From NCBI RefSeq assembly GCF_018304945.1, contig NZ_JAGQEE010000005.1, positions 248,001-312,000 on the forward strand: 64,000 nucleotides of DNA, written 5' to 3'. Below are positions 1 to 43,204 of this stretch, piece by piece (position 1 is the stretch's first letter; each line of letters opens with the position of its first letter). Position numbers and translations under genes: made by a program. A model generated the notes under the pieces. That model was given only the letters and a program-made list of their open reading frames with translations. It had not been told where the DNA came from and did not search any database. The stretch is from Collimonas humicola (lineage in GTDB: Bacteria; Pseudomonadota; Gammaproteobacteria; Burkholderiales; Burkholderiaceae_D).

Positions 1-2
1 TC

Positions 3-9000: not shown

Positions 9001-12000
9001 TACCGGGCGAGGGTGTCGGCGCCGTGCTATTGAAGCCGCTCAGGCAGGCCATCGAAGACGGCGACCAGATCCACGCTGTCATCAAGGCCTCTGCCGTCAA
9101 TCACGGTGGCAAGACCAACGGCTACACCGTGCCCAACCAGGTCGCACAGAGCAATGTGATCGGCAAGGCGTTGCGTCGCGCCGGCTGGCACCCGAGTTCG
9201 ATCGACTACATCGAGGCGCACGGCACCGGTACTTCACTGGGCGATCCGATCGAAATTGCCGGCCTGTCGAAAGCCTTCAACTCTGCCGCGCAGGACATGG
9301 AAAAGCAGGCCCGCGGTGGCGATGTTGGTGATGGCGGGAGCTCGGTGACAGCGCAGTCCTGCCGCATCGGTTCGGTGAAAACCAATATCGGCCATCTGGA
9401 ATCCGCCGCCGGCATGGCGGCGTTGACCAAGATCCTGCTGCAAATGCGTCATCGGCGCATTGCACCGTCGCTGCATTCGACGCTGTTGAACACGAATATC
9501 GATTTCGCCAAGACCCCATTCCGTGTGGTGCAGGCGCTCGAAGACTGGCATGCGCCAGCCCGGCCCGGCGCTAGCGGCAAGCCGGCAAGCAGGCGCGCGG
9601 GCATCAGCTCATTCGGAGCGGGCGGGGCGAATGCGCACGTTCTTATCGAAGAATACGAGGCTGCGGCTGCGATTACGATGCAACATGTTCCGGCATCGCT
9701 GCCGCAGCCGTTGTTATTCGTGCTGTCGGCCGACAGCGAGGAACGTCTGACGCTGTACATCGACCGTGTGCTGGCGTTCCTGGTCCAGCACCAGCAGGGC
9801 GGCAGCACGCTGGATTTGCGCTCCCTGGCCTATTCGTCGCTGATAGGACGCGAGGCCATGAACGAACGGCTCGCTGTCGTGATCTCGAGCCTCGACGACC
9901 TGATCGACGCGCTTGCCCAGTATCGGCAGGGCGTCGTCGTGAACCAGGTGCAACGCGGCAGCGTCAAGAAACACAGCGAAAAGCTCGACGCCATCCTCGA
10001 TGAAACACAGCGCGACGCGATGGTGCGATCCCTGTTGCAGGATAAACGGCTGCCACAACTTGCCAAAGCCTGGGTGTCGCTGCTGGATATCGAATGGAGC
10101 CGCTACGCCGATCTGTTGTTCGCCGCCGATCCGGCTTCGGCCCGCAGTACAAGTACAGCGTCAGTCCGCCGCCTCTCGTTCCCGGTGATGCCGTTCTTGA
10201 CAAAACGGCACTGGGTGGAAGAGAAACCTGCCGCGACCGACGCCATCCGTCACGATGCGCTACATCCTCTGCTCGACCGCAATGTATCGACATTGACGCA
10301 GCAGCGCTATGCCAAACTCTTGACCGGCCAGGAGTTCTACCTGCGCGATCACATCGTCGAAGCGGGCCAGAAGCGGGTGATCCTGCCTGGCGTCACCTAC
10401 CTTGAAATGGCGCGCGCCGCCGGTGAGTTGGCGATGGGCGAGGAATGGTCGGTGGACCGGATACGCAATCTGATCTGGATCCAACCGGTCGAGATCAAGG
10501 ATGCTCCTGAAGAAGTGACGGTGACGCTCACGCAAGTCGACGATGCGGTGGAATTCGACATCACCCGCAGCGCGACCAAGGACGTCAGCGTCGAAGGAGA
10601 ATTGCATTATCGCCGCCGTGACGAGGCAGTGGCGGATGAGTGGCTCGACCTCGATGCCCTGCGCAGCCGCGGGGTCATAGAGGCAGACAAGCAAGCAATC
10701 TATGACAGCTTCCGTCGCATGGGTTTCCACTATGGCAGCAGCTATCAGGTTACCGAGACGCGCTATCGCATGACAGACGGCGCACTCAGCCGTCTCAGGC
10801 TGCCGGAGTTTCTGTGGCATGACGCCATGGCTTTCTGTCTGCATCCTTCGCTGTTCGACGGCGCGCTGCGCACTTGCCTCGCCATCGGTTCGGAGTCGCT
10901 GGATGCGACGGTGCCGTTGGTGCCGTTCGCGCTGGGCGAACTGGAGATTCGGCATCCGCTCACCGAGGAATGCTATGCCTACGCGACCGCAGTCGTCGAT
11001 GCTGAGATGCAGGCCGATCCTCACAGCGGCCTGCGCAAATACAACATCGTCGTCACCGATAGCGATGGGCGGGTGCTGATCAAGCTTTGGAATTTCTCCG
11101 CTCGGCAGTTGATCAAGGCAGAGCCGCAAGCCTCGCGTGCTTTGCAGTACTACGGCTATGATTGGCTGGAGACATCGGCGCTGCCTGCGCTAGCGTCCAC
11201 GCTCTCAGGCCGGACCATTTTGGTGATCGCCGACGATACCTCGCTGGCCGAAACATTGTCGCTTCGCTTCGCATCATCGGCCAATGTCGTGCTGGCACAG
11301 CCCGGCGCTGCATTTGCCAAGCTGGGCGAGCGGCACTACCGCTTCGATCCGGCCAGCGCTCACTCTTATACGGAACTGCTGACGCATCTGGCCAGTCAGG
11401 ATCTCCGGCCGTCACACATTGCACATTACTTGCAAGATGTGCAGGACTTCACTGCGGCAGTCGATCATGACGACGTGCAGAGCCTGCGTCGCGGGATATT
11501 GTCGATGCGTCACCTGTTCAATGCACTTGAACAGGCGATGCTCGGCCAGAGCGTGCGTTGCGCCTACGTATTCGAGGCCACGCGAGAAGCGATTCAGCCG
11601 CAGCACGATGCGATCTCCGGCTATGCCAGATCGCTGCTGACCATCAATCATCGCTTCGAATTGTTCACGCTCCGGTCCGATCATGCTGAAACGGCTGAAC
11701 TCGCGGCCGCGTTGCAGAGTGAATTCGATGCATCCGGGACGCTTACCGGCCTGGAAATCGCCCACTGGAATGGCCGCCGCTACCTGCGCAGCCTGACGCC
11801 TTTCGATCCGTCCGGCATGGGTATGGCACAGAATGCGCTTCCGCTGAAATCGCGTGGCGTGTATCTGATCACTGGCGGCGCCGGCAAGCTTGGCCTGGTG
11901 CTGGCCCGTTACCTGGCTACGCACTACCAGGCAAGATTAATACTGAGCGGACGCAGCGAGCGGCTGCACGACGAAGCACTGGCGCAGATCGAGGCGTTGC

Positions 12001-15000
12001 GCGCTGTCGGTGCAGAGGTGCATTACCACTGCTCCAATATCGCCCAGGCCGGGCAAGCCGATGCTTTGCTGGCTGTCGCCAAACAGGTTTATGGCCGGCT
12101 CGATGGCGTCCTGCATTGCGCTGGGGTGGCCAGCGACACGCTGATTACCCAGTTGGATGAGATGGCCTTTGCCGACTTGCTGGCGCCGAAGATCGACGGC
12201 CTGTTGGCCCTGGACCGTGCTACCCGGAGTGAACCGCTGGACTTTTTCGTCAATTTCTCCTCCGTCTCTGCGATGCTGGGCGATCTGGGCTCCGGCGCTT
12301 ATGCCGTAGCCAATCGCTTCATGGATAGCCACGCCGTGTGGCGCGATGCGCTGTGCCGGCAAGGTCAGCGTTTTGGCAAGAGTCTCTCGATCGGCTGGCC
12401 TTTGTGGGCAACTGGCGGCATGAAGATTTCACTTGAGGATGCATCGCTATTCAACTTCTCGGGAATGTCCGCACTCACTGAGGACGAGGGTATCGAAGCC
12501 TTTGAACGTCTGTTGCGTGGCGATATGCAGCAGGTGCTGCTGGCCGTGGGCGACGCCGCGAAAATCGGGCGCGCGCTGCGGGTGCAGGGCGCCGTCGGTT
12601 CGCACGCCGAACCGGCGCCGGCCATTGCTCAGGCAGCGCCGAGGGCGTTGCCGATCAAGACGGTTTTAACGATGGCGTCAACAACGCGTACGGTCGGAGA
12701 CCATAATATGACGGCCTTGCCTTCCGGTTCATCCTCCGGTGCAATAGTGGTCAATACATCAGATCAACAAGGCCGCGCCGAGCACTATATTAAGGAGCGA
12801 CTGGCGATTGTGGTGAAGGTGGCGGCAAGCGATATCGCTGCGCATACCACCTTCGAGCAGCTCGGCATGGACTCTGTGATGCTGATGGAGTTGCGCAATA
12901 GCCTTACGCAGGATTTCCCCGGCCTGCCTAAGACCGCGCTGTTTGAATACGACACACCGGCGCGTCTGGCGCAATACCTGATGCAGCAGCACGCCGACGC
13001 CTTGCGGACCTGCCTGGGCGGTTTAGCGCCTACGGCGGCCGATGAGACGATTGCCACTTCGCTGGTGAGCGTGTCAGCCTCGGTTGCCGCAGTTGCATCA
13101 GCTGCGTCAGTTACATCAGCCGTCGCGGGGCCGAGGCCTGCTGCGCTGCCGGTTTCCGGCAAACGCCGTGCTACGACAATTGGCGCAGCGGCTGCCGCGG
13201 ACGATGCGGTCGCCATCATCGGCCTGGCGGGTCAATTCCCGCAGGCCGCTGATCTGGGCGAATTCTGGAGCAACCTGCAACAGGCCAAGGACTGCTTGTC
13301 GCCGATTCCTGAAGATCGCTGGCCGACGACGGCCAACGGCCAGCGCGATGCGCGTCGCGACTATTGCAACAAGGGCGGTTTCCTGAGTGATGCAGACCGT
13401 TTCGATCCCGCATTTTTCAGGATGTCGCAGAGCGAGGCGGCAAAGACCGACCCGCAATTGAGAGTGCTGTTGCGCGCCGCATGGCATGCCATCGAGGATG
13501 CCGCCTACACGCCGGAGGCGCTATTACCGGAGCGTGTCGGCGTTTATGTCGGCGCCATGAACGAAGACTTCACCTGGATCATGTCGGAGTTGTACGCTCG
13601 CACCGGCGAGTATCAGGGGCCGGGTTCGGTGGTCAGTGAACTGGCCAACCGAATTTCCTTCCTGATGAACTTCCGCGGCCCCAGCCTGACTGTATCCACG
13701 GCGTGTTCGTCCTCGCTCACGGCGGTGCACATGGCGCGGCAATCGATTCTGGGCGGCGAGTGCGATATGGCGCTTGCCGGCGGTGTCAACCTGAGCCTGC
13801 ATCCCAGCAAGTACCTCATGTTGCAGGATATGAAAGTGTTGTCGCCGGATGGCCAGGAGCGCACCTTCGATGAGGCGGCCAACGGCCTGGTGCCGAGCGA
13901 AGGTGTGGGGATGGTGCTGCTCAAGCGCTTGAGCCGCGCGCTGGCGGACGGCGACCAGATCTACGGCGTGATCCGTGGCTCCAGCATCAGCCATGCCGGC
14001 ACCGGCGCCGGTCAATACCTGCCCAATCTCAAGGTTCTTGAGGAAACGGCGGTGCGCAGCCTGCGCGAATCCGGCCTGCGTGCCGAGGACTTGTCTTACA
14101 TCGAGAGCCACGGCACCGGTACTGAACTGGGCGATCCTATCGAACTCAAGGCGTTGGCCAACGCGCTGCGGCAGTCTACTTCGGCGGAACGGTTCTGCGC
14201 GATAGGCACCAAGGCCAATCTCGGCCACATGGAGGCAGCCTCGGGCGTCTGCTCGCTGATCAAGGTGCTGTTGAGCATGAAGCATGGCCATCTGTCGCCG
14301 TGCGCGAAGTTGACCTCGGTGAATTCGTCGTTCGAACACGAGTTCTCGCCATTCCACTTTCCGCGCGAGCCGCAGCTATGGAATGTGAACCAGCGCGGCA
14401 CGCGCGCGGCCGGCATCAATTCCTTCGGCATGGGGGGATCTAACGTGTTCGTGGTGCTTGAATCCCGGGATCCGGCTACATCCAGGCAGAACCGGGCGGG
14501 CGCTCAGGTCGAGCCGTCAATCGTCGTGCTGTCGGCGAAAAGCGAAGATCGCTTACGGGCTTATGCAAGCGCATTGCTGGCCTTCCTGGCACATGGCGAC
14601 TGCGAAGCATGGTCGACTGCGGATTTTTCCGATATGGCGTATTCGAGCCAGATCGGAAGGTCAGCGTTCGAGCATCGCCTGGCAATCGTCGCGACCGATC
14701 GACTGGAACTCATCGCCAAGGTAAACAAGTACCTTCAATCCGGGCCTGTCGCAGCGCTCGGCATCTTTGCCGACGGCGCTCGCTCGCCGGACGGGTTGCC
14801 GGATCTGCTGGCAGGGAATGCCGGCCGGGAATTTATCGATGCGCTGCTGCAATCGCGGCAATGGGACAAATTAGCCTCGATCTGGACGCGTGGATGCGCC
14901 GTCGACTGGCCGCGCTTGCACCTCAATGCAAGCCGGCGGCGGGTGTCCTTTCCGGCGTATCCGTTCGATACGATTCGCTGCGACTTAGGTGACGCAGGCG

Positions 15001-16016
15001 CACGAGGGGAGCATGGGAAGCGTCAGGTAGCGCTCGAAACCGGCACTGCCGCCTCGTCTTCAGTTGAAGTGGATGCGCTGCCCCAGAACGCTGCGGCCGA
15101 GGACGAACTGCAAGGAAACCAAGAGTGGTTCAGTCTGGAGGCTACGCCGAACCAGGCGCTGCAAGACGCTGAGGGCAGCGCTGACGAGGGCGATGAAATG
15201 GCCAGGCAGTACTGGATCGGCCATCTGCAAGACATCGCCGACTCTAGCTTCCTGCTCGCGCCGGCGCTGTTGCCCGAGTATGTCGGACAGGATGCCGCCG
15301 AGGAGCTGCCGGCACACTTCGTCTCCGATTCGCTCGGACGCGAGTTGACCCGCTCCCTGCAACGCTGCACCCAATTGCATCGGATTGAAGTGGAAACCCT
15401 GATCGCGGCGGCCTGGGCCATCCTGATCAACCGTTACACGAAGGTGCGTTGCTCTCAATTCGGTATCTTGAAGGCATTCACACCTGGGCCGAACGCCGCC
15501 ACAGGGTCCGATGCAGACAGCCATGAGCCGTTGCACAATTTTGTGCCGGTCAGGATCTGCACGGCCGGTCGCGAAAAAATTGCGGGCTGGCTGACCGGTT
15601 TGCAGCGCAATCTGAATCGCAAGCGTATTTACGCCCATGTGCCGATCCATCGGATTGAAAGCTGGATCGGCGTCGAGAGCCTGTTCGACAACGCGATTGC
15701 CTTCGAGAAGAGCCACGGGCCGCAAGCCGATGCGACTGCAGTTGCAGCGCTTGCAACTGTGAGCCGAGCGCCATTGCCGGCCTGCGTCGCCATGAAGCTG
15801 ACGGTAACTATCCACAGCGACGCGCTGGACTTTAACCTGACTTATCGCTCGGCAAAAGCGGAAGACGAAAAGCTCAGCACGCTGCTCGATCATTTTCAGG
15901 TGCTGCTGGAAGGTCTGGCCGCTAATCCGGAAAAGACCCCGGCAGCCCTGACTATGCGCACCAAGCGCGAGAGCCGGGAAACTTTCTGGAAAACCATGGA
16001 CAAGGTGAATCGATGA
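3..16016 (+). CDS. trans-AT polyketide synthase, 5' end missing
   Basis: Large modular PKS open at the left edge; 5337 codons are visible (residue 1 = codon at 3). Visible order: KS1 (1-316; Cys52, His187, His233), DH1 (505-800; His536, Asp714), KR1 (about 1066-1290; Tyr1213), ACP1 (Ser1379); KS2 (1468-1910; Cys1642), DH2 (2078-2356; His2110), ACP2a (Ser2441), ACP2b (Ser2559), a degenerate ACP; KS3 (2770-3216; Cys2938), DH3 (3418-3703), KR3 (about 3950-4130; Tyr4100), ACP3 (Ser4291); KS4 (4401-4821; Cys4568), then a C-terminal half condensation domain (about 5065-5300). No AT, MT, ER or TE domain is seen. Together with the separate AT gene downstream this marks a trans-AT system. It elongates and processes an ACP-bound chain in the cytoplasm. 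KS4 has no ACP after it. The stop overlaps the next gene's ATG (ATGA). The family call is sure; the product is unknown. Confidence 0.97.
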   Translation, partial: GVFNHDYKELQERDEPLIEAHNSTGTATAMIANRVSHYFDFRGPSIPIDTACSSSLNAIHSAIQAMEFGDCEMALAGGINLLLTPTRHISFSKMGMLSPTGTCKTFDDSADGYVRGEGAGLLLLKPLDKALSDGDSIYGVIKGSAVNHCGATYTLTYPSPRAQAEVIVAAHERAGIPVDSVGYIEAHGTGTPKGDPIEFEGLLTAFQTLADKQDIHLGNAFCGLSSVKTNIGHLEAAAGVAGAIKVLMAFKHRTLPALHDFTTLNSKISINETPFYILGETREWAQVDKNKDQPRRAGVSSFGFGGTNAHLVLEEAPPSQHSQKALPSQSKRPSYLIALSAKSSEALLQKQKDISAWLRDDAGQSDLLDISATLLTRREHFQHRFSCIAANVQELIEKLGQSIAIDAGASSVTGQGQKSPAPDAVQAGQKLLKQLSAKPRLKGAKYPAALQQLADLYAEGVDLPWVALFGEAVVKPVSLPTYPFSRDSFWIAESDDRGDADQRQALHPALQRNVSMIGTQRYASTFTGKEFFLADHVIKTQPVLPGVVYLEMVRAAIVDALGADAGSVQLSDVLWMRPLEVGGEPVSVHVKLWPESADSAGVGRQGGTGLAFQVTSAEIGALPQIYCRGSVDIVSAANLAALDIAALKRACDGQVYSAEQCYRSLANLGLNYGPAQQAIAQLHSGTHQCIAQLSLPAQLVAGSEPYVIHPSTADAALQAAVAFVAGVEIGDASATTFLPFALDRLDVYHRCTSAMHAWVRYAPGHSADASSKKIDIDVIDADGSGQGRICLAFRGLSIRPMAADASFAPPTAPSFEARLSPELQQSLYTPVWTTQPIAGAASEEAIDHLLLVGDPNDASWLTQQLRTSSQFASTRIEHLYFGSEVAVEDAGALHVRPGRLEDYEAAVAALASRGGKLDHVLLIAPRLTSDIAQIASDSPDSPVGKIAQNLFALVKAMMRGTKRAKFLHLVSRQPQRPEYQGLSGLYKTLRIEKPSYSGRVVQCDLAELPAQRLAELVFKEFHAADKDVDVSYSDDVRSVRKFRQLDANSLPPATSADLKASLRKEGVYLITGGMGALGLLFARHLCERYQATVFLTGRSAPTEQHRLTLNELSSLGGHASFLTCDVVNRDDVRRAIDSIHAAGHQLNGVIHSAGVIEDDFILRKSPESFARVVAPKTLGTWHLDIETRDEPLDFFALFSSVTGVLGNIGQCDYGFGNAFEDYFAHQRDTLRRQASRHGKTLSINWPYWKEGGMRLTDKEEENLHRSFGLVPLLSAQGIEIFEYALTQPNSQLVVMPGDAAKVQEVLGVVATAMPVAAVVAAAMPAKMHSAPYAHSQSPVAAGDLSTAVARYLAALFAAQLQISSDFELTRSFREYGFDSIVMIDLVNSMEKKFGSLPKTLFFEHQTLGELTAFFIEHHAESCRAIVQAELGGKMIDAAGPVRSESAAMDAPATLSAADSTFSAAAEHDDVAIIGLSGRYPEAESLEQFWENLKFGRDCVVEIPSDRWDIETTFQPGPAVIGKTYSKWGGFLKGVDQFDPLFFNISPKEAENMDPNERLFLETAALTIEDAGYTADKLVSPLGVRENPVGVYVGLMWGDYQLHGVEGQPHTWATPHSFYWAVANRVSHYFNFSGPSITIDTACSSSLTAIHLACAAIRAGEIGVAIAGAVNLSLHINKYNLLSDMHFLSTDGRCRSFGEGGDGYVPGEGVGAVLLKSLARARADGDHIYGIIRGTSVNHGGKTSGFTVPNPKRQAMLVQDALQAAGVNPRHISYLEAHGTGTSLGDPIEIAGLNKAFAQQEHQYCAIGSVKSNIGHLEAASGIAGLTKILLQMKHRTLAPSIQSDVLNPYIDFKNCPFRVQRTLQEWSRPWLDVTDQDGSTRRMELPRLAGISSFGAGGSNAHLIVEEYTESESANDQDRDRPALITLSARKEAALKAMAENLAAFVEANPELSLQDAAYTLQTGRVAMEHRLAVVALRGAQLVAALRAYVNSSSSGTDTDLFSGHRDQAKAAASAPPVAQWLAQGDLPQLAKAWVSGHAVEWAQLHAPQARKRLSLPGYVYQRQRYWVTKPGVVATSAALHPLIDSNVSTLEEQTFRKTFRAEEFFLRDHQLGSNRILPGVAYLEMALAAGRLGSSEPVCALRDVQWLKPIFVNEGSSSFDIGLIPAADGVHFEIYQAHGDTRQIYSQGMLEFGASPLSTSAGMVDLHAIIGRCQMQSREAIAAAFTQMGFNFGPSFQVFDVLHFNADEALAQLSQPTQLAMPAVQGFTLPPALLDGAVRTALGIGGLGFALRGVHAPVRLQRIEVLLPIVGSCFAHARRANVEARHADQHSYDIDLLDAAGRVLARIEQLVIQAAPSLGLSRSPAKVSEPVRRAAIAAITAATPASAQPRLSVATSGSDNPEALQAAVVTHLVGLLSTVTKVPAEQIDPKSALENYGIDSVMILALTEKLHPTFGEVPKTLFYEYQDLHSLSEYFLDSHTEQVRGLAAVSPVLAAAPALQLTPQPMPQPIDAISAPAGQEAQQAAVVAHLVELLSTVTKVPAEQIDPKSALENYGIDSVMILTLTEKLHPTFGEVPKTLFYEYQDLHSLSEYFLDSHAEQVRSLAATSSNHQSAPSPQPETIVVEVADLGPAALRSRLFVCLRETLGDDARNCTDTTALAEWPIDPISHVRLMHALRQEFGGIDIGPMYRHATLDDWAAAIWAAAPQPVGRAVTATVGVSTDADTAAPPSAVRTTGTTGTTASAPGFSRFSTRFAQAGGTAMSASHQDQEIAIIGLSGRYPGARNVEEFWQNLSAGRDSITEIPLSRWDHQKHYHPDRNAKGQVYSKWGGFIDDIDQFDAGFFSISPREAEITDPQERLFLQTAWECLEDACYTRQALKDRDVGVFVGVMWGHYEAIDVSEQQRKYGRPAALSSSIANRVSYFLNLNGPSVALDTMCSSSLTAIHLASQAIRNGDCQMAIAGGVNLIVHPLKYQLLAQGQFLSTDGRCRAFGDGGDGYVPGEGVGAVLLKPLRQAIEDGDQIHAVIKASAVNHGGKTNGYTVPNQVAQSNVIGKALRRAGWHPSSIDYIEAHGTGTSLGDPIEIAGLSKAFNSAAQDMEKQARGGDVGDGGSSVTAQSCRIGSVKTNIGHLESAAGMAALTKILLQMRHRRIAPSLHSTLLNTNIDFAKTPFRVVQALEDWHAPARPGASGKPASRRAGISSFGAGGANAHVLIEEYEAAAAITMQHVPASLPQPLLFVLSADSEERLTLYIDRVLAFLVQHQQGGSTLDLRSLAYSSLIGREAMNERLAVVISSLDDLIDALAQYRQGVVVNQVQRGSVKKHSEKLDAILDETQRDAMVRSLLQDKRLPQLAKAWVSLLDIEWSRYADLLFAADPASARSTSTASVRRLSFPVMPFLTKRHWVEEKPAATDAIRHDALHPLLDRNVSTLTQQRYAKLLTGQEFYLRDHIVEAGQKRVILPGVTYLEMARAAGELAMGEEWSVDRIRNLIWIQPVEIKDAPEEVTVTLTQVDDAVEFDITRSATKDVSVEGELHYRRRDEAVADEWLDLDALRSRGVIEADKQAIYDSFRRMGFHYGSSYQVTETRYRMTDGALSRLRLPEFLWHDAMAFCLHPSLFDGALRTCLAIGSESLDATVPLVPFALGELEIRHPLTEECYAYATAVVDAEMQADPHSGLRKYNIVVTDSDGRVLIKLWNFSARQLIKAEPQASRALQYYGYDWLETSALPALASTLSGRTILVIADDTSLAETLSLRFASSANVVLAQPGAAFAKLGERHYRFDPASAHSYTELLTHLASQDLRPSHIAHYLQDVQDFTAAVDHDDVQSLRRGILSMRHLFNALEQAMLGQSVRCAYVFEATREAIQPQHDAISGYARSLLTINHRFELFTLRSDHAETAELAAALQSEFDASGTLTGLEIAHWNGRRYLRSLTPFDPSGMGMAQNALPLKSRGVYLITGGAGKLGLVLARYLATHYQARLILSGRSERLHDEALAQIEALRAVGAEVHYHCSNIAQAGQADALLAVAKQVYGRLDGVLHCAGVASDTLITQLDEMAFADLLAPKIDGLLALDRATRSEPLDFFVNFSSVSAMLGDLGSGAYAVANRFMDSHAVWRDALCRQGQRFGKSLSIGWPLWATGGMKISLEDASLFNFSGMSALTEDEGIEAFERLLRGDMQQVLLAVGDAAKIGRALRVQGAVGSHAEPAPAIAQAAPRALPIKTVLTMASTTRTVGDHNMTALPSGSSSGAIVVNTSDQQGRAEHYIKERLAIVVKVAASDIAAHTTFEQLGMDSVMLMELRNSLTQDFPGLPKTALFEYDTPARLAQYLMQQHADALRTCLGGLAPTAADETIATSLVSVSASVAAVASAASVTSAVAGPRPAALPVSGKRRATTIGAAAAADDAVAIIGLAGQFPQAADLGEFWSNLQQAKDCLSPIPEDRWPTTANGQRDARRDYCNKGGFLSDADRFDPAFFRMSQSEAAKTDPQLRVLLRAAWHAIEDAAYTPEALLPERVGVYVGAMNEDFTWIMSELYARTGEYQGPGSVVSELANRISFLMNFRGPSLTVSTACSSSLTAVHMARQSILGGECDMALAGGVNLSLHPSKYLMLQDMKVLSPDGQERTFDEAANGLVPSEGVGMVLLKRLSRALADGDQIYGVIRGSSISHAGTGAGQYLPNLKVLEETAVRSLRESGLRAEDLSYIESHGTGTELGDPIELKALANALRQSTSAERFCAIGTKANLGHMEAASGVCSLIKVLLSMKHGHLSPCAKLTSVNSSFEHEFSPFHFPREPQLWNVNQRGTRAAGINSFGMGGSNVFVVLESRDPATSRQNRAGAQVEPSIVVLSAKSEDRLRAYASALLAFLAHGDCEAWSTADFSDMAYSSQIGRSAFEHRLAIVATDRLELIAKVNKYLQSGPVAALGIFADGARSPDGLPDLLAGNAGREFIDALLQSRQWDKLASIWTRGCAVDWPRLHLNASRRRVSFPAYPFDTIRCDLGDAGARGEHGKRQVALETGTAASSSVEVDALPQNAAAEDELQGNQEWFSLEATPNQALQDAEGSADEGDEMARQYWIGHLQDIADSSFLLAPALLPEYVGQDAAEELPAHFVSDSLGRELTRSLQRCTQLHRIEVETLIAAAWAILINRYTKVRCSQFGILKAFTPGPNAATGSDADSHEPLHNFVPVRICTAGREKIAGWLTGLQRNLNRKRIYAHVPIHRIESWIGVESLFDNAIAFEKSHGPQADATAVAALATVSRAPLPACVAMKLTVTIHSDALDFNLTYRSAKAEDEKLSTLLDHFQVLLEGLAANPEKTPAALTMRTKRESRETFWKTMDKVNR
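7252..7811 (+). repeat. near-identical tandem ACP domains in PKS module 2
   Basis: Two copies, 7252-7457 and 7606-7811, are offset by 354 bp (118 codons). By eye I count eight base differences over the 206 nt. Each encodes an ACP core with the phosphopantetheine Ser in a GIDSV motif (codons at 7323 and 7677). Tandem ACPs are common in trans-AT PKSs. Identity this high at DNA level, including synonymous sites, suggests recent duplication or gene conversion. Confidence 0.9.
7885..8110 (+). other. degenerate third ACP-like domain, no phosphopantetheine Ser
   Basis: A stretch of about 75 residues after the twin ACPs has the helical pattern of a carrier protein (RLMHALRQEFG after the motif, then a TLDDWAAAIW end). 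The GxDS motif reads PIDPIS: the position expected for the modified Ser is Pro (codon 8001). It should not be phosphopantetheinylated at that site. It may act as a spacer or docking element before KS3. The assignment rests on pattern only. Confidence 0.55.
15195..15905 (+). other. C-terminal half of a condensation domain at the PKS end
   Basis: The last about 240 residues of the PKS match the C-terminal lobe of NRPS condensation domains: a QYWIGHL start, AAAWAILINRYTK, a VPVRI strand, WLTGLQRNLNRKR, then SLFDNAIAFEKS. The N-terminal lobe with HHxxxDG is absent; KS4 and a linker precede it directly. It is therefore unlikely to catalyse condensation alone and may be a docking or scaffold remnant facing the NRPS. 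Confidence 0.7.
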
Positions 16017-17062
16017 ATAGGAACGGAATGCATGTGTTCATGACGGGGGCGAACGGTTTCGTCGGTCTCAATATCGTCGCCGCGCTGGTGGCGGCAGGGC
16101 ATCGCGTCACTGCCTTTGTCCGGCCTGGATCGAACGTTTCCTATCTGGAGCCGTTCGGCGCCGACGGTGGCGGCAGCGTCGGCAGCGTTGATATCGTGCG
16201 CGGCGAACTAAGCGATCTCAGCGCGGTGGTGAAGGCGATGAGCGGCGCCCAAGGAGTGATCCACACCGCCGGCAACACCAGTTGCAACAAGCGCGACTGG
16301 CCGCTGCTGCAGGAGGTCAATGTGCAAGGCACACGCAACGTGGTCGACGCCGCTATCGCCAATAAGGTCCAGCGCATTGTGTATACCAGCACGACTTCCA
16401 CCATCGGAGCCTTCAAGGACGAAGCGCAGGTTGCGAATGAAGACACGGTGCTGAAGGGTTTCCGGGCGCGCAGTCCTTACGGGATCAGCAAGCAGATGGC
16501 CGAACAGGCTGTGCTCGATGCGCAGAAGCATGGCGTGGAATGCGTCATCCTCAATCCTGCCGAAGTGCTGGGCGCCTTTGATTACTCGATGCAATGGGGG
16601 CGGATGGTGCTGGCGGTATATCACAACCAGGTGCCTTTCATGCCGCCCGGCGGCGGCACCTTTTGCAGCGCCGCCGAAGTCGGACGGGCACACGTCAGCG
16701 CATTGACGCAGGGACGTTCCGGCGAGCGCTACATTCTCGGCGGCGACAACGTCAGCTACGAGCATTTCCTGACAGCCATCGCCAAGGTTCTGGGCCAGGT
16801 TTTCGACAAGCCGGACGTCAACTACACCTGGCTGTATGTCAAATCGGTTTTGCAAGAGAAGTTTCCATTGTTATTGTCCGGCAAGCCCATCGTCGAGCCT
16901 TACCGGATGCGGGTTTTCGGCGGCACGTATTATTTTGACAGCGCCAAGGCCGAGCGTGAGTTGTCTTATCGGCCGGTTTCACTCGAACAGATGCTGCATG
17001 ACTGTGTGCAGTGGTACCAACGTCACGGTTTCATCAGCAGACCAGCAGCAGTGATTAATTGA
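16013..17062 (+). CDS. extended SDR, NAD-dependent epimerase/dehydratase-like reductase
   Basis: A 349-aa extended short-chain dehydrogenase/reductase. It has an N-terminal Rossmann motif TGANGFVG and the catalytic pair in SPYGISK (YxxxK). The start at 16013 overlaps the PKS stop. An alternative ATG at 16028 has a better-placed AGGA and gives a protein five residues shorter. It is followed closely by the alpha-oxoamine synthase and free ACP genes. Extended SDRs reduce ketones or epimerise/dehydrate NDP-sugars; with an AOS next door, reduction of an amino-ketone to an amino-alcohol is the most attractive role. The bacterial ceramide reductase CerR is also annotated as this family. That role is inference; the family call is firm. 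Confidence 0.85.
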   Translation: MNRNGMHVFMTGANGFVGLNIVAALVAAGHRVTAFVRPGSNVSYLEPFGADGGGSVGSVDIVRGELSDLSAVVKAMSGAQGVIHTAGNTSCNKRDWPLLQEVNVQGTRNVVDAAIANKVQRIVYTSTTSTIGAFKDEAQVANEDTVLKGFRARSPYGISKQMAEQAVLDAQKHGVECVILNPAEVLGAFDYSMQWGRMVLAVYHNQVPFMPPGGGTFCSAAEVGRAHVSALTQGRSGERYILGGDNVSYEHFLTAIAKVLGQVFDKPDVNYTWLYVKSVLQEKFPLLLSGKPIVEPYRMRVFGGTYYFDSAKAERELSYRPVSLEQMLHDCVQWYQRHGFISRPAAVIN

Positions 17063-17096
17063 ACATTACCAACATCATTGAAACAGGGGAGACACG

Positions 17097-18368
17097 ATGG
17101 ATTCCAGAGCGCTAATCGAACTCGAACGGCAGCCATTCAAACAGCGGCTGGCCCAGCAGTATTCGGTTTACTTAAATGAAGTGGAGCAGGGCTTGATGTC
17201 CGGTCGGGAGGGCTTCGGTCCGGTCGATCGCCGGATGAAATACAAGGACTTGCACAGCGAAGTCTTTCACGACGTACTTATCTTCGGCTCCAATAGCTAT
17301 CTCGGCTTGTCGAACGATCCTTATGTGAAGCGCAAGGTGAAGGAGGCCGTCGAACAATACGGCATCGGCTCGGGCGGTTCGCCTGCCTTCTCCGGCTACA
17401 CCAAACAACACAAGGATCTCGAAAAGAGACTGGCCAGGCTGGCGGACCACGAGGACGCCGTGCTGCTCCCAGGCGGCTATATGGCAAACCTGTGCTGGGT
17501 CAACGGTTTGATGAACCGTAACGACGTCATCGTCTACGACAAGAACAGCCATGCCAGCGTCATCAATGCGATCAAAATGACGAGTGTGCCGTTTTATACA
17601 TTCGATCCCGAGAAACTCGATGAATTTGAGACGCTCCTGAAGCGGATCAAACAGCGTTCGAAGGCGGACGTGCAGATTTTCTCGACGGTTGAAGGGGTTC
17701 GCTCGATCGACGGTTCGATCATCGAACTGAAGCGCTATATCGAGATTTGCAAGGCCCATGACGTCATCACCATCCTGGATGACGCTCACGGACTGGGTAC
17801 GGTCGGCAAGTACGGTCGTGGCACCCTGGAATACCTGGATCTTCTGGGTCAGGTCGATCTGCGCATGTCCACCTGCAGCAAGGCAATCGGCGCGCAGGGT
17901 GCTTTCGTCTCCGGCAGCAAGGAGCTGATCTTCTTGTTGAGGAATTTCTCCTATCCCTATTTATTCACTTCGGCGATGGCGCAGCCGACCATCGCAGCAA
18001 TTTCCGCCTCATTGGACATCATGGAAAACGAACCGGAACGCATCGAGATGCTGCATAAGAACGTGCGCTATATGCAGGATCAACTGGAAGCGGCGGGACT
18101 TCGCATCATTCGCGGCAAGTCAGGAATCATTCCGGTGTTCTTCGATGAGGATGGCGTGGTGCGCAAGATCAATCGCGCCCTGTACCGGCGCGGACTGTTC
18201 GCCAACATCATGGAATACCCGATGGTGCCGCCCGGACTGGAGCGCTTGCGACTGTCGGTGATGGCGACCCACACGCGCGAGGAAATCGACACAGCCGTAT
18301 CGCTCATTGTGGAAACGGCATGTGAATTTGGCGCTTTGCAAAATAACACCACTTTGGAGAATGCATGA
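17097..18368 (+). CDS. PLP-dependent alpha-oxoamine synthase (Spt/AONS/KBL family)
   Basis: A 423-aa fold-type I PLP enzyme, usual length for the family. Visible motifs: SNSYLGLS near the N-terminus, GSGGSPAFSG, DKNSHASV (His stacking on PLP), LDDAHGLG (Asp/His pair) and STCSKAIG with the Schiff-base Lys262. The family condenses an amino acid decarboxylatively with an acyl thioester, giving an alpha-amino ketone, as in serine palmitoyltransferase, 8-amino-7-oxononanoate synthase and Gly C-acetyltransferase. A strong AGGGGAG RBS lies at 17085-17091. The stop overlaps the start of a free ACP gene, which suggests an ACP-bound acyl donor. Biotin or threonine catabolism roles are unlikely in this context. 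The amino acid used cannot be read from the sequence. Confidence 0.9.
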   Translation: MDSRALIELERQPFKQRLAQQYSVYLNEVEQGLMSGREGFGPVDRRMKYKDLHSEVFHDVLIFGSNSYLGLSNDPYVKRKVKEAVEQYGIGSGGSPAFSGYTKQHKDLEKRLARLADHEDAVLLPGGYMANLCWVNGLMNRNDVIVYDKNSHASVINAIKMTSVPFYTFDPEKLDEFETLLKRIKQRSKADVQIFSTVEGVRSIDGSIIELKRYIEICKAHDVITILDDAHGLGTVGKYGRGTLEYLDLLGQVDLRMSTCSKAIGAQGAFVSGSKELIFLLRNFSYPYLFTSAMAQPTIAAISASLDIMENEPERIEMLHKNVRYMQDQLEAAGLRIIRGKSGIIPVFFDEDGVVRKINRALYRRGLFANIMEYPMVPPGLERLRLSVMATHTREEIDTAVSLIVETACEFGALQNNTTLENA

Positions 18369-18637
18369 TGAGCAAGAAAGAAGAAGTGTTGGAAACGCTG
18401 CTGGATGTCATCAACAACATCAAAAAAACCGGATTCACACGCGACTCGGTGGAGCCGGACTTCTATCTGGGCGGCGATCTTGGCGTCGATTCGAAGGAAA
18501 TGCTTGAAATCTGGTACGAGCTCGAACAGCGCTTGAATATCCGTGTGCAGGATGCGGAAAAGCGCGATCTGTACACCCTGGATGAGGTCATCAATCTTCT
18601 GGAAAGCAAACTGGTCCCGGTAGCGGCAGCCTTGTGA
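18365..18637 (+). CDS. free-standing acyl carrier protein
   Basis: A 90-aa discrete acyl carrier protein. The motif DLGVDSKEML carries the phosphopantetheine Ser, followed by an acidic helix and a DLYTLDEVINLLESK end. It overlaps the AOS stop. A second in-frame ATG at 18368 has the better distance to TTGGAG (18353-18358). Its probable job is to present an acyl chain to the neighbouring AOS, as AcpR is thought to do in Caulobacter sphingolipid synthesis. Alternatively it could load or carry an unusual extender. Modification by the PPTase at 39230 is likely. Confidence 0.9.
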   Translation: MMSKKEEVLETLLDVINNIKKTGFTRDSVEPDFYLGGDLGVDSKEMLEIWYELEQRLNIRVQDAEKRDLYTLDEVINLLESKLVPVAAAL

Positions 18638-18776: not shown

Positions 18777-20687
18777 ATGACATCAGCGTGGGTATTTCCA
18801 GGGCAGGGATCTCAGTATAAGGGCATGGGCGCGGAGCTATTCGCGCGCTTTCCCCAGCTCGTCCGCGAGGCGGATGAGGTATTGGGGTATTCGATTCGCG
18901 AGTTGTGTCTGGACGATCCGAAGAATGTGCTCAACCAGACCGAGTACACCCAGCCGGCGTTGTTTGTCACGTCGGCACTGTCTTTTCTGGCCAGGCGCGA
19001 GCAAGGCGATGCGCCGCCCGCTATCTACGCGGGACACAGCCTGGGTGAATTCAACGCCATCTTCGCCGCCGGCGGCTTCGATTTCAAGACCGGCGTTGCC
19101 TTGGTGGCGGAGCGTGGGCGCTTAATGTCGCAGGCGACGCGCGGCGCCATGGCGGCCGTCATCGGCCTGGATCAGGACAAAGTGCGCGAACTGCTGGCGT
19201 CTTTGCCTTTCGGCCAGATCGACATCGCGAATATCAATTCCTCAGAGCAGATAGTGATCTCGGGCGAGGAAGATGAGATTGCGCGCTGCGAAGCACTGTT
19301 TGCAGGGGCCGGCGGCCGTTATGTGCGCCTGAATGTCAGCGCCGCTTTCCATTCCAGATTCATGCGCGACGTCGAGCAGCAGTTCGCCGCTTACCTTGCG
19401 CGCACGCCCTTGCAGCCGCTGAACGCGGAAGTCATTGCCAATTGCACGGCGCAGTCCTATCCGATGACTGGCTATCAGGATTTGATGGTGCGGCAGATCA
19501 CCCATCCGGTGAAGTGGTACGAGTCGATCTCGCGGCTGCTGTCGCGTGGTGAGGTGGCGCTGGAAGAGGTCGGGCCGGGCGATGTGCTCAGCAAGCTCTT
19601 TTTCAAAATCAGGCAGAAGCCGATGCCGCTGCCCACGCCGCTGAGCGATAGCGCAGACGAATCTGCCGCAGCAGCGGCGCGCAACAGCCAGGCAGTTGCC
19701 GACCACAAACCTGCCGATGGGCCGGCACCGCCTTCGCGGCGTACCGTGTTCATGTACTCGGGACAGGGTTCCCAGTATTACTTGATGGGCAAGGAGCTGT
19801 ACCAGCACAGCGCGCCGTTTCGCGAAGCGATGGACGCTTGCGATGCGCTGCATCGTGCGCACACTGGTCGCAGCATGGTGGCGGAGTTGTACGACGACAC
19901 CAAGCGGCACCAGGAGATGACGGATGTGCTGTTGGCGCATCCGGCACTATTCAGCCTGGGCTACAGCCTCACCCAGGTGCTGCGGCAAGCGGGTATCGAG
20001 CCGGACGGGGTGTTGGGTTACAGCCTCGGCGAGTACGTCGCGGCGACGGTTGCGGAAGTGGTCTCGCTGGAGGATGCGATGGCCATGGTTATTTGCCAGG
20101 CGCGCTTGCTCAGCGAACAAACCTCTGGCGGCGGCATGCTGTCGGTATTGACGCCGGTGGAGCATTTTGAACGCCATCCCGATGTGTACCGGGGCGGCAC
20201 GCTGGCGAGCGTCAACTTCAACGACAACTTCGTGGTCAGCGGGGACCAGCGGACACTGCTCGCGATCAAGGAACGGCTGGACGCGCAGGATATTGTATCG
20301 CTGCTTCTGTCGGTCGATCACGGCTTTCATTCAGCGGCGGTGGAGCCGATAGAGACAGAGTTCCGCCGCTTCTTGCAAAAGCTCCCACGACAGGCGCCGC
20401 GCCTGCCGATCTACTCAGCCATGCATGGCCGCGCGATCAATGTGATCGATGCATTTGACGATCAGTACTTCTGGGATGTGCTGCGGCAGCGTGTCGATTT
20501 CCACAAGCTGATGGGCTCGTTGAGCGGACAGGAAGGCGTCCGCTTCGTCGATCTTGGGCCGACCGGAACCTTATCCGGTTTCATCAAGTACGGCTTTGGC
20601 AATCGCGTCGATCACGCTGTATCGATCAATCAATTCGGAAAAAACATGGAAACAGTGTCCAAATTGCTGACCAGGCTTTCCGCTTAG
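18777..20687 (+). CDS. tandem trans-acyltransferase (AT plus probable acyl hydrolase)
   Basis: A 636-aa protein with two FabD-like domains. AT1 (about 1-285) has GQGSQY, the nucleophile motif GHSLGEF, the ERGRLM arginine that in this family binds the malonyl carboxylate, and AAFHSRFM. AT2 (about 320-630) has GQGSQY, GYSLGEY and DHGFHS. At the ERGRLM position it reads CQARLL, so Arg is replaced by Gln. AT1 should load malonyl units onto the ACPs of the AT-less PKS. AT2 fits the PedC-like editing hydrolases that clear stalled chains; that is inference from the missing Arg. An upstream ATG at 18763 meets a stop after five codons, so 18777 is the start. The NRPS follows 77 bp downstream. Confidence 0.92.
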   Translation: MTSAWVFPGQGSQYKGMGAELFARFPQLVREADEVLGYSIRELCLDDPKNVLNQTEYTQPALFVTSALSFLARREQGDAPPAIYAGHSLGEFNAIFAAGGFDFKTGVALVAERGRLMSQATRGAMAAVIGLDQDKVRELLASLPFGQIDIANINSSEQIVISGEEDEIARCEALFAGAGGRYVRLNVSAAFHSRFMRDVEQQFAAYLARTPLQPLNAEVIANCTAQSYPMTGYQDLMVRQITHPVKWYESISRLLSRGEVALEEVGPGDVLSKLFFKIRQKPMPLPTPLSDSADESAAAAARNSQAVADHKPADGPAPPSRRTVFMYSGQGSQYYLMGKELYQHSAPFREAMDACDALHRAHTGRSMVAELYDDTKRHQEMTDVLLAHPALFSLGYSLTQVLRQAGIEPDGVLGYSLGEYVAATVAEVVSLEDAMAMVICQARLLSEQTSGGGMLSVLTPVEHFERHPDVYRGGTLASVNFNDNFVVSGDQRTLLAIKERLDAQDIVSLLLSVDHGFHSAAVEPIETEFRRFLQKLPRQAPRLPIYSAMHGRAINVIDAFDDQYFWDVLRQRVDFHKLMGSLSGQEGVRFVDLGPTGTLSGFIKYGFGNRVDHAVSINQFGKNMETVSKLLTRLSA

Positions 20688-20764: not shown

Positions 20765-21410
20765 ATGTTATCAGGACAAGAATCGACGGCCGGTTTGAGC
20801 ATGCGTCATAGTGGTTATGGGATGGAGTTGTCAAGCTCGCTGAACGACGGTATGGCCAGTGCAAAATATGAAGGCCAGCGCCGGATGCTGGAGTGCATGC
20901 CGTTCCCTTTCCCGTGCAATGCCGATCTGCCCCTCTGCGTGGCCGCATGGCATGGCGTTCTGCATTGGCTGAGATACAACGACGAACCCGTAATGACCTG
21001 TCTTTTGGGCGCTCAGGCCGAGAAATGTTGGCCACTGGTCACAGCGATCAGCGAGCGCACCTCCCTGGGCGAACTGCTGGCCGATGTCAGACAGCAATGG
21101 GTGGACAACGAGAGCGATTGGTTCGATTTGCATGATCCGAATCATCCCGGCATGACCGATCAGTTGCGCTGTCACGCGATCTGCCTGCATGGTGTCTCGG
21201 AAGAGGCGAGCGAGACAGAGTTCACGATCGTGCACGATTGCGAGGCATGGTTCGTCGATTGCGATGCCAGCCGCTTCAGCGAATCCTATCAGCGTTCCGT
21301 GATGGCAATGTGGGCCCACCTGGTCGCCAGGATGCTGGAAAGCCCGGCATCGCGCTTGTCGGATGAGCACCGTTTCGACGGTCTGGATGCCTATGCGCCG
21401 TCGCAAAACG
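20765..21410 (+). other. N-terminal half condensation-like domain of the NRPS
   Basis: The first about 215 residues before A1 have no HHxxxDG. They resemble the C-terminal lobe of a condensation domain: an AWHGVLHWLRYND helix, TSLGELLADVRQQW, a TEFTIVHDCEAW strand and a last MWAHLVARMLESP helix. The module thus starts effectively with A-PCP-E, the layout of an initiation module. The match is weak and by pattern only. Confidence 0.5.
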
Positions 21411-24400
21411 ATATGACCGGGCCGGCGAAGTCAATTGCAGGCAATCTGCCCGGACGGTTTGCCGCCCAGGTTTCCGCCGAACCGCATAAGATCGCCGTCA
21501 TCGACGCCGATGGCGCCCTGAGCTACGCTGAGCTGGACGCCTTGTCCGAACGCTGGGCACAGGCCTTGCACACGGCAGGCGTGGTCCGCGGCGACTACAT
21601 CGGCGTTGCATTCGACCGCAGCCATCGCATGATTGCGGCGCAACTGGCGGTGCTGAAAGTCGGGGCGGTGTTTGTCCCCATGGACGCCGCCCAGCCGGCG
21701 ACCCGCCTGCAGGCGATGGCCGACGACGCCGAGATGCGCGTCGCCTTGACCGACGCATCCTGGATGCCGTTGATGCGCGAAGCCTTGCCGGCCGTGCTAT
21801 GCCTGGATGTTGCATCCTCTGCCGCAGCGTCTTCCTCCGACCTTGTCATCGATCCTGCCTCGCATCGTCCACAACTACTGGATGTGCTGAGCACGGACGA
21901 TCTGGCCTACGTGATCTTTACGTCGGGCTCGACCGGCCGTCCGAAGGGTGTCAAGGTCAGCCATGGCAACCTGCTCAATTTCGTCACTCATCTGAAAGAA
22001 CTGATGAGCGCGCACGAAATCGTGTCGCAGTTTGCCCCCGCCACATTCGATGCCTCAGTCGGTGAAATCCATTCGGCCCTGCTGAACGGCGCCACGCTGG
22101 TGATCCTGCCGGCCGAATTGATCGACAGCCCCGACCGGCTGCAGGCATACATGAGCGAGCAACGGGTGACGTTTGCGGCTTTTCCTCCGCAATACGCAAA
22201 ATATCTTTGGCCCGAGAAGCTGCCGCAACTGAAGACCCTGCTGACTGCGGGATCGGCGCCCGATCACGAACTGGTGCGGCGCTGGCAACCGCATCTGCAG
22301 TACGTCAATGCATACGGTCCGACGGAGACCACGATCCTGTCGACACTTTGGCAGGCCAGCCGTCAGGTTGAGCAGCAAGAGCGCTTGACTATCGGCTTTC
22401 CGATCATCAATACCGAGGTCCGTGTAGTCAATCGTTTCAACCAGCCATTGCCGCGCGGGGCCATCGGCGAACTGCTGATCGGCGGCGCGGGTGTGACGCA
22501 CGGCTATCTCAAGCGCGAAGAAATGACGCGCGATAAATTCATTACGACAGATCTGACGCGCTGGTACCGCAGCGGCGATCTGTCCTGCTTCGACGATCAG
22601 AACCGCTTATTCTTCGCCGGCCGCGTCGACAATCAAATCAAGCTGCGCGGGCATCGCCTGGAGCCGGGCGAAGTGGAGACAGCGCTGTTGACCTTGCCGG
22701 GGATCGAGCATGCTGCTGCCATCGTCGTCGAGGTTCAGGCGGTCAAGCAGCTGGTGGTGTTCTGCGTCGGCCAGCCACAGCCGGAAGAGGCGATCCGGGC
22801 CGGTTTAGCCGAGGTTCTGCCGGCCTGGGCCATGCCTAACCGGATACTTTGGTTGGCCGAACTGCCGCTGACGGTGAACGGCAAGACCGATTATCGCGCG
22901 CTGCAAGCGCGGCTACAGCAGAACGATGCGCCGTTGCAGCCAGTGGACTACGCCGACGAATTGGAAGCGCAGGTCGCCGATATCTGGCGCAACGTTCTAC
23001 AGCAGCCGAATATTTCGCGCGAGGATAACTTCATTCATTTGGGCGGCGATTCGCTGACCTCGCTGGCGGTGATGTCCGCGCTGAAACGGCTGGGCTACCA
23101 GATCACTTCGTCGCAACTGCTGTCGCATCCATGCCTGGCCGATTTCACCGAACTGCTGCGCCACTCCGAGCGCCTGATGCAGCGCGACTATGCCAGCCGC
23201 CAGGGGATTGCGCCGCTCAGCCCGATTCAGGGCTGGTTCTTTCAATTGCAAATGGCGCGGCCGGGTGCGTTCTGCCAAGCCTTGTCCTTCGAGACCGAAG
23301 AAAGCCTCGACGCCGAGCGCTTGCACCGGGCTTTTTCGCGTCTGGTTACCTACCACGATCAATTGCGGGCCCATTTTGTCCATTCCGTCCATGCTGAAAT
23401 GGCTGTGCAGGAGCCTTTGGCCTGGCGGCAGGAAGTCGCCGGTGCGGCGCTGGAGCTGCCGCCGATTGCCTCCATCGACGTTGCCGAAGCAGAACTGGAG
23501 CAGGCCAGCGAACAATGGCGCGACATGCTTGCCGCGCAACTGCGTATCGAGCAGGTGCCTCTGTTTCGCATCGTTCTGCTGAAAACACCGAGCCGCTCGC
23601 GCGTGGTGTGGGTGCTGCATCACTTGATTGTGGATACCATCAGCCATGGCATCCTGCTGGACGATCTGCGTCATCTTTACGTCAGCGACGAGAGCAGCCT
23701 CGAAGAGGTATTGCCAGGCAAGAGCATCAGCTACCTGGACTGGTCGGAAAAATTCCATGCGCATATCGCCGAACGGCCGAACGCACTGCTGGACGACTGG
23801 CTTCCTGTGCTGCGCGCCGTCGAAAGCGCGCAGGCGCTTCCGCTTGTGGGGAGTGAGGCAGTGGGGCGCTCGATTGCGATCGGGCAGTACAGCCTGTCGC
23901 GGGAGGATACCGCGCGCCTGCTCGGATCAGCAGCAGCCTGTTACCGCCAGAGCGCAGAAGAGTTGCTGCTTGCCGCGACTTATTTGGCGCTGGCGCGTAG
24001 CTGCAAGCTGGAACGTATCTGCTTAGACCTCGAATGGCATGGCCGGGACGAGGCATTTGCCGGTTCGCAGGGTCTCGATCGCACGGTGGGCTGGTTCAGC
24101 AGCGTGCATCCCCTGTGTCTGACAGTGCCGGCGCAACCGGACCTGGGCGCGTGGCTGATCGAACTGAAGGAGCGCCGTGCGGCGATTCCGCAACGCGGGC
24201 GGGATTTCTACGCGCTGCGCTACCTGAGCCGCGATCCTGCCGTGCGTGAGCAATTCGACCGTTACCGCTCGCCGCAAGTGCTGTTCAACAACTTCTCCGG
24301 CGTGGTGCAGCGCAGCCACGAGAGCTGGCGCACGGTGCCGATGACCGCCGGCGAAATGGGAGAGAGCGGCGCCAGCCCCTACGCGCTGTCGGTGGAAAGC

Positions 24401-39229: not shown

Positions 39230-40039
39230 ATGGCTGATCTCGATCCGCAACGCATAGACCTGTGGCTGACCCCGCTTGACGACCAGAGGGATAGTCAGCT
39301 TCTCGAAGCCTATCGGCAGCTGCTCAGCGCAGAGGAGCGGCGTCGCCTCCAGCGTTTTCTGCGCGAACCGGATCGGCATCGCTATCTGGTCACGCGGGCA
39401 CTGGTGCGCACCGTGCTGGCGCGCTTCACAGGCGTCGCCCCGGAATGCCTGAGGTTCAAGGAAAATCGCTATGGCAAGCCGGCGCTTTGCGGCATGGATG
39501 CAAATAACCGGACGCTGTCGTTCAATCTATCGCATTGCGGCGACATGATCGTACTGGCGTTGACCCGGGATCGCGAGCTTGGCGTGGATGTGGAAAACAT
39601 CGCACTGCGGCCAGCGCCGATCAATATCGCCAAGCGGTTTTTCGCGGAGGTAGAGGTGATTGATCTGGAGGAACTGTCGACTGCTGCGCAAAGTGAACGT
39701 TTTTTCGAGTTGTGGACGCTCAAGGAAGCCTATGTCAAGGCACGTGGAATGGGGCTTTCCATACCACTTGACCAATTCGGCTTTCGTTTCGGCGCCTGCG
39801 GTCGCCTGGCGATGTGGATGGAACCGGATTTAGGTGATTGCCCATCCCGCTGGCATCACTGGCAAATCCGGATTGCCTCGAAATATCTTGTCGCCGTTTG
39901 CGCCGAACATCGGACGGCTGCTTCGTCTCCTAGCATCACTGCGACCCGGATCATTCCACTGATCGGTGACGAGCCCATCGGACACCTGCAATTGCGGACT
40001 TGTGAATGGCAGAGTCGCGCTGATTTCGGTGTAGGGTGA
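39230..40039 (+). CDS. Sfp-type 4'-phosphopantetheinyl transferase
   Basis: A 269-aa protein with the Sfp family signature: SFNLSHCGD, LGVDVEN (Mg-binding acidic residues) and FFELWTLKEAYVKARGMGL. Sfp-type enzymes move phosphopantetheine from CoA to the conserved Ser of ACP and PCP domains. Here the clients would be the four intact PKS ACPs visible in the window, the free ACP and the four PCPs. It is the last gene of the locus, 60 bp after the permease, with AAGG upstream of its ATG. The C-terminus has about 60 residues beyond the usual core, without a recognisable domain. Confidence 0.94.
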   Translation: MADLDPQRIDLWLTPLDDQRDSQLLEAYRQLLSAEERRRLQRFLREPDRHRYLVTRALVRTVLARFTGVAPECLRFKENRYGKPALCGMDANNRTLSFNLSHCGDMIVLALTRDRELGVDVENIALRPAPINIAKRFFAEVEVIDLEELSTAAQSERFFELWTLKEAYVKARGMGLSIPLDQFGFRFGACGRLAMWMEPDLGDCPSRWHHWQIRIASKYLVAVCAEHRTAASSPSITATRIIPLIGDEPIGHLQLRTCEWQSRADFGVG

Positions 40040-43138: not shown

Positions 43139-43204
43139 TCTTGTAAAAAATATTCACAAGACACTAGCCACGAATCAAAAATGCCCTTATAATTTCGCTT
43201 CTTT

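Follow-up and report, generated by a model that had tools for sequence, protein, structure and literature searches.

A compact, operon-like run of genes in Collimonas humicola encodes a trans-acyltransferase (trans-AT) polyketide synthase (PKS), an extended short-chain dehydrogenase/reductase (SDR), an alpha-oxoamine synthase (AOS), a discrete acyl carrier protein (ACP), a double acyltransferase (AT), one large non-ribosomal peptide synthetase (NRPS), an ABC exporter pair and a 4'-phosphopantetheinyl transferase (PPTase). The run lies in a window of 64,000 nucleotides (G000:C20:248001-312000), the whole stretch of DNA analysed here, and the SDR, AOS and ACP genes, called the trio below, are the subject of this study. 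In window coordinates the features are as follows.

1..16016, + strand: trans-AT PKS, 5462 aa, starting 373 bases upstream of the window (G000:C20:247628)
16013..17062, + strand: extended SDR, SolB relative, 349 aa, proposed reducer of the beta-keto group
17097..18368, + strand: AOS, SolC relative, 423 aa, with the pyridoxal phosphate (PLP) lysine Lys262
18365..18637, + strand: discrete ACP, SolD relative, 90 aa, LGVDS site, proposed acyl-donor carrier
18777..20687, + strand: double AT, SolE-like, with AT1 GHSLG and AT2 GYSLG
20765..37153, + strand: NRPS, 5462 aa, four adenylation (A) domains
37111..39170, + strand: ABC exporter pair, ATPase at 37111-38097 and permease at 38094-39170; DrrAB-like, although under the cut-offs of those models
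39230..40039, + strand: PPTase, assigned by family searches

The three genes that an earlier note on this DNA had described as an SDR, an AOS and an ACP are real, with intact active sites and reading frames that are all open on the + strand. There is a 4 bp overlap between the SDR gene and the stop of the PKS upstream of it, and another of 4 bp between the ACP gene and the AOS stop; SDR and AOS are 34 bp apart. The order SDR-AOS-ACP-AT was seen in 12/12 regions, the window included, a count that leaves out a 13th locus of 4.4 kb (L016).

Several lines of evidence identify the PLP enzyme. Against NCBIfam it matched 14 models at E <= 0.001, none over its cut-off and bioF best (9.1e-88); 10 of the 11 strongest are AOS models and the remaining one is a 'hypothetical protein', and the last three of the 14 are weak and describe other PLP enzymes. 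A sequence search of the PDB returned 54 matches, all with AOS-type names except one 'aminotransferase class I/II-fold'. The predicted structure (mean pLDDT 86.2, pTM 0.83, from a 33-row alignment) was compared by Foldseek, and the 50 matches listed of 1,635 at E <= 0.001 are serine palmitoyltransferase (Spt), AOS, Kbl, BioF and ALAS structures. In the alignment Lys262 falls on the lysine that binds PLP, and N66, H152, S203, D229, H231, T259, K262 and R385 are conserved in 11/11 rows of the clade to which the enzyme belongs. Family models, active-site residues and fold agree that the enzyme is of the AOS type, as the earlier note had read it, and not a transaminase; its predicted reaction is a Claisen-type condensation of an acyl thioester with an amino acid.

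Within the family, the enzyme and its closest relatives form a deep clade of their own. In a first tree of 47 rows, in which a long row (L118) joined the clade, its support was 100/100 on a branch of ~2.5 changes per column. The second tree (46 rows) was built without L118, and L112, L120, L124 and L016 were left out of both. In the second, the clade and the Spts fall together, apart from Kbl, BioF and ALAS (95/96), and in the best tree it stands outside the Spt branch (itself 91/91, not starred). The AOS clade is thus placed beside the serine palmitoyltransferases in the best tree. In approximately unbiased (AU) tests, joining it to the Spt beta group was rejected (p 0.034), whereas joining it to Bacteroidota-type Spt (p 0.317), Kbl (0.277), ALAS (0.117) or BioF (0.107) was not. 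The best tree therefore does not group the AOS with BioF or Kbl, although the AU tests do not reject such a grouping; the same genome has a separate Kbl (L006) and a BioF-like gene (L004) whose neighbourhood looks by eye like a bio operon. The AOS of this genome that lies next to a P450 (L162, G000:C17:333001-345000) was considered and set aside as ordinary, since it looks like bioF with a BioI-like P450 among biotin genes; its neighbours were read by eye as bioB, bioD and bioA.

The earlier note had likened the trio to the Spt, AcpR and CerR genes of bacterial sphingolipid synthesis. The set of functions (AOS, ACP and SDR) is indeed the same, and the AOS carries several active-site letters of Spt, but the likeness weakens on closer comparison, as the best tree puts the trio AOS outside the Spt clade and the trio SDR is of another lineage. 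This SDR (Pfam Epimerase, 3.3e-32) contains the motifs TGANGFVG and Y156xxxK160, the Tyr and Lys of the latter being conserved in 10/10 aligned SDRs, the window's included. It scored 22-32 bits against the SDRs beside Spt genes (five of eight Spt loci, taken as CerR-like by position only; no SDR was found beside the Spt gene in the other three), as opposed to 66-166 bits against nine HpnA-model hits, three of them over the model cut-off. By sequence, then, the parallel with CerR appears to be one of role and not of descent. The ACP carries an LGVDS phosphopantetheine site and matched the NCBIfam acyl carrier protein model below its cut-off (5.5e-11); it had no match in a Pfam search, and on the AcpR side there was a single weak match (14.9 bits). 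In further contrast to the sphingolipid genes, the acyl donor of the trio would be a polyketide and the product probably an NRPS monomer.

A much closer counterpart is the solanimycin cluster, solA-L, of Dickeya solani, described in two papers (PMC9765074 and PMC10204066). In Table 1 of PMC9765074, SolB is listed as an NAD-dependent epimerase/dehydratase, SolC as an 'aminotransferase', SolD as an ACP and SolE as AT-AH, and the domain order of the window PKS is the printed order of SolA. The same paper finds the closest relatives of SolA, SolB and SolE in LT85_1869, LT85_1870 and LT85_1874 of Collimonas arenae, and names Rouxiella badensis DSM 100043, Pantoea sp. A4 and Erwinia sp. ErVv1 as carriers of the cluster. 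A literature search for GLE_2101 found PMC9765074 only. The trio genes are relatives of solB-solC-solD, and the cluster type is already known. The layout, for which the earlier note knew of no described pathway, is therefore not undescribed: solABCDE was published in 2022-2023. Besides PKS domain order, the two systems share the gene order PKS-SDR-PLP enzyme-ACP-AT and an A domain of the type called DAG below. They differ in that the window has no P450 match, one large NRPS with other A codes, two DAG domains and no thioesterase (TE) motif at the NRPS end, and, where a MATE transporter is reported in sol, two ABC exporter genes and a PPTase of its own.

When genome contigs were scanned with the AOS, 53 loci were obtained; 11 are 73-85% identical to it and the others <=37%. 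The former belong to Lysobacter/Lysobacterales, Xanthomonas, Cellvibrio, a Gynuella metagenome-assembled genome (MAG), Rouxiella, Erwinia and Pantoea, the Rouxiella, Pantoea and Erwinia loci being 73-75% identical. A genome of the same genus (G130) has a cluster whose AOS is 97% identical; this region was checked for the window parts and P450s only. At E <= 1e-100 the AOS is rare in the genomes sampled, occurring in 2/294 of the family and 1/369 of the class, with the window's genome counted in both. A tyrosine recombinase on the - strand, dnaQ and a tRNA gene (43205-43278, +) lie just beyond the cluster (window 40931-43278), which looks like a genomic island because of these recombinase and tRNA neighbours and its rarity in the family.

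The PKS is organised as KS-DH-KR-T / KS-DH-T-T / KS-DH-KR-T / KS-partial C and is 42-88% identical to five relatives over nearly its whole length, three others aligning in part only. A Pfam scan of the part of the PKS within the window showed no AT domain, and a discrete double AT is encoded downstream. The second AT domain reads GYSLG instead of GHSLG, which might suit an acyl hydrolase. In the Cellvibrio clusters (L018/L019, G298/G299) two genes lie between AT and NRPS, by eye an RND/MMPL-type exporter and a LolA-like protein. The NRPS has the order partial C-A1-T-E-C-A2-T-E-C-A3-T-C-A4-T-atypical C, the E and C assignments being read from HHxxxD-type motifs, and no GxSxG thioesterase motif occurs in its last 400 aa. 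Its A domains, whose codes assume the final K, are as follows.

21458..22900, + strand: A1, code DAGQLAAILK, DAG clade, proposed loader of the trio's fatty amino acid
26033..27499, + strand: A2, code DVRSFSLVEK, adjoining the Ser-type domain of sol clusters in the tree
30734..32179, + strand: A3, code DAGPLAGILK, a second DAG-clade domain by code and tree
33908..35350, + strand: A4, code DIWSIVHDDK, of the DIWS-type clade described below

In a tree of 37 A domains from nine clusters, 15 fall into one clade (SH-aLRT 98, or 100 with controls) with the code DA[GA]..A..[LM]K, as in DAGPLAGILK and DAGQLAAILK, hence DAG clade. By code, at least one such domain is present in 11/12 trio clusters, and the code occurred in 0/11 of the closest A domains from family genomes without the trio (five candidates scored per genome). 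In Rouxiella, Erwinia and Pantoea the first position alone is of the DAG type; in the window and in G130, G294, G298, G299 and G303 it is positions one and three, in Xanthomonas the second, and in G296 the first and fourth. In sol clusters the first A domain has a code that is not glycine-like (DAGPLAGIMK, DAGSLAGIMK); PMC10204066 leaves this domain without assignment and predicts Gly, Ser and Val for the next three, a series that does not fit the codes of the window NRPS. A second distinctive clade, DIWS...D[DG]K, holds 6/37 domains, including the window's at 33908-35350, and occupies the last or last two places in four of the nine NRPSs.

We infer that the DAG clade loads the fatty amino acid made by the trio as a free monomer and that the window peptide would carry two such residues. 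The loading role is suggested by colinearity and by the pocket, since Gly or Ala stands in the DAG code at the place of Trp in the Phe-type code. Loading of a free monomer fits because the position of the DAG domain varies (1, 2, 1+3, 1+4).

The genetics and chemistry of solanimycin provide the frame for a biosynthetic proposal. Dickeya solani loses its antifungal activity when solB, solC or solD is deleted in frame (PMC9765074). The N-terminal unit of solanimycin has been assigned as a C16 acyl group that bears a hexaene and is hydroxylated at position 3 and aminated at position 2; a solF mutant gave a C14 hexaenal, a solB mutant accumulated a compound of m/z 230.154 assigned as a hexaenoyl aminomethyl ketone, and solC, solI and solK mutants yielded no compound in isolable amount (PMC10204066). 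The sequence of an amino-ketone followed by an amino-alcohol, which the earlier note had proposed, fits this published chemistry.

Based on these observations, we favour, with moderate confidence, a route in which the SolB-SolC-SolD block makes a 2-amino-3-hydroxy polyenoic acid through C-C bond formation by the AOS and reduction by the SDR, the acid being loaded by a DAG domain. The trans-AT PKS, given its SolA-like architecture, would supply a conjugated polyenoyl thioester, and a carrier protein, probably the discrete ACP, would present the chain. The PLP enzyme, to judge from its family, would then bond the acyl group to the alpha carbon of an amino acid without transamination, and the SDR would reduce the beta-keto group. 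The resulting 2-amino-3-hydroxy polyenoic acid (a lipo-threonine) would be loaded free onto the NRPS by A1 and A3. A 2-amino-3-hydroxy fatty acid of this kind, serving as a building block of the peptide, is a more likely product than a free sphingoid base.

Kbl and threonine dehydrogenase make up the 2-amino-3-ketobutyrate pathway, and it is their reverse, synthetic direction that offers the simplest chemistry for the proposed route. By analogy, an acyl thioester, here acyl-ACP, and glycine would give a 2-amino-3-keto acid with the carboxyl kept, followed by reduction to a beta-hydroxy-alpha-amino acid; no oxidase would be needed. The trio AOS differs from Kbl in falling into another clade in the best tree, in the letters at positions 95, 261, 387 and 389, and in its proposed use of a long-chain acyl-ACP donor. 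Glycine plus a C14-hexaenoyl thioester minus CO2 gives the solB-mutant ketone of m/z 230.154, whose mass was checked by hand, and the N-terminal group of solanimycin has the mass expected of the parent beta-keto unit after reduction. If the glycine carboxyl is retained, the ketone would be explained as a product of spontaneous decarboxylation. The weakest step is the choice of amino-acid co-substrate. Glycine that retains its carboxyl is the simplest option by this analogy; serine or alanine would require later oxidation of C1, which the P450 of Dickeya could carry out but for which the window operon offers no candidate, Pfam having found no other oxidase among the genes scanned there.

Several observations weigh against the lipo-threonine route. 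The AOS clade has S95, S261, S387 and M389, as in Bacteroidota-type Spt and unlike Kbl (V/G/Q/S) and ALAS, and Pro at position 96 in place of the Arg of Kbl, Spt and ALAS rows, an Arg that is also lost in BioF rows. The Gynuella contig has the trio without a DAG domain. P450s occur elsewhere in the window's genome and in 8/10 trio genomes, so supply from outside the cluster is possible, and solI, which encodes a P450, is essential in Dickeya (PMC9765074). In PMC10204066, glycine was considered as the two-carbon source and then rejected on labelling; the chemistry proposed here could lose deuterium, but 13C2-glycine should label the unit, as should serine-derived carbon. The same paper judges the free acid less likely because the solF mutant gave an aldehyde, and its solC mutant is without identifiable compound. 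Extended to the whole PKS-NRPS cluster family, that is, a new monomer route by an acyl-ACP-using AOS with the carboxyl kept and lipo-threonines loaded by DAG domains at one or two positions, the published transaminase/P450 model being wrong, the proposal is tentative and open to considerable doubt.

The Gynuella locus (L017, L156-L157, G297:C28) deserves separate mention. Its 45.8 kb contig begins inside the PKS, continues with SDR-AOS-ACP-AT, and carries a different NRPS on the opposite strand with genes that are FAS-like by eye.

Among the alternatives, a route like that of sphingoid bases, in which the AOS joins the polyenoyl chain to serine or alanine with loss of the carboxyl and the SDR produces an amino-alcohol, is unlikely, though it can draw on the grouping of the clade with Spt against Kbl, BioF and ALAS, on the serines and methionine common with Bacteroidota-type Spt, and on the AU test, which does not reject union with that group. 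Its continuation, also unlikely, would be oxidation of C1 by the P450 in Dickeya and attachment of the amino-alcohol itself in P450-free clusters, for example by the terminal C domain; the window NRPS does end in an atypical C-like domain without a TE motif, and loss of formaldehyde, or oxidation and decarboxylation, could give the ketone of m/z 230.154. However, DAG-type A domains require a carboxylate and yet are kept in P450-free clusters, and the trio SDR is unlike those beside Spt genes. Further, 13C from glycine reached the serine-derived dehydroalanine but reportedly not the N-terminal unit (PMC10204066).

The published route begins from a C16 beta-ketoacyl thioester made by the PKS, the C2 of which the P450 SolI oxidises to a keto group, after which SolC transaminates and SolB reduces the beta-keto group. 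We regard this as distinctly unlikely, although it was put forward because labelled glycine was absent from the unit (PMC10204066), and both the need for solI in Dickeya and the P450s elsewhere in the window's genome speak for it. Both papers name SolC an aminotransferase, and in PMC10204066 the P450 feeds SolC; as the SolC relative falls with AOS enzymes and not with transaminases by family model, residues and fold, SolC seems to have been mislabelled. Nor does the distribution of P450s accord with this route. BLAST with seven P450s taken from trio genomes gave a match in 3/3 enterobacterial cluster regions (their own P450s being among the queries) but in 0/9 non-enterobacterial ones, namely the window's own and those of G130, G294, G295, G296, G297, G298, G299 and G303, of which G303 and G297 end at contig ends. 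There was no BLAST match to these P450s in 132 kb around the window cluster, the genome's two P450s lying outside it, one beside bioF. A Pfam scan for P450s in ten trio genomes found matches in all but G296 (a MAG) and G299. Nearly the same DAG code is nonetheless retained in clusters without a P450.

The cyclosporin side-chain amino acid is likewise a 2-amino-3-hydroxy acid of polyketide origin that an NRPS A domain loads, its amine being installed by oxidation and transamination. It is cited in PMC10204066 as a P450/transaminase parallel, and differs from the trio product in that the amine of the latter would come through C-C bond formation instead.

Three other readings were rejected. Placing the AOS at the beginning of polyketide assembly, on an amino acid and a malonyl-ACP starter, conflicts with solanimycin shunt products ending in a methyl-capped polyene; an AOS acting on the aminoacyl thioester of the first NRPS module conflicts with a code that is not glycine-like and with DAG domains at position 2 or 4 elsewhere; and carenaemin as the product conflicts with the tie of carenaemins to a polyunsaturated fatty acid (PUFA)-synthase cluster, according to PMC13291983.

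In the literature searched, including the available parts of both solanimycin papers, the AOS assignment, the independence from a cluster P450 and the DAG clade were not found. If the AOS reading is true, the amino group of solanimycin is made by C-C bond formation and the role of the P450 would have to be reassigned, and the DAG code would become a genome-mining handle for polyene-amino-acid peptides. The clusters of the window, Lysobacter, Xanthomonas and Cellvibrio, which lack a cluster P450, would be systems suited to settling the question, with a few purified proteins.

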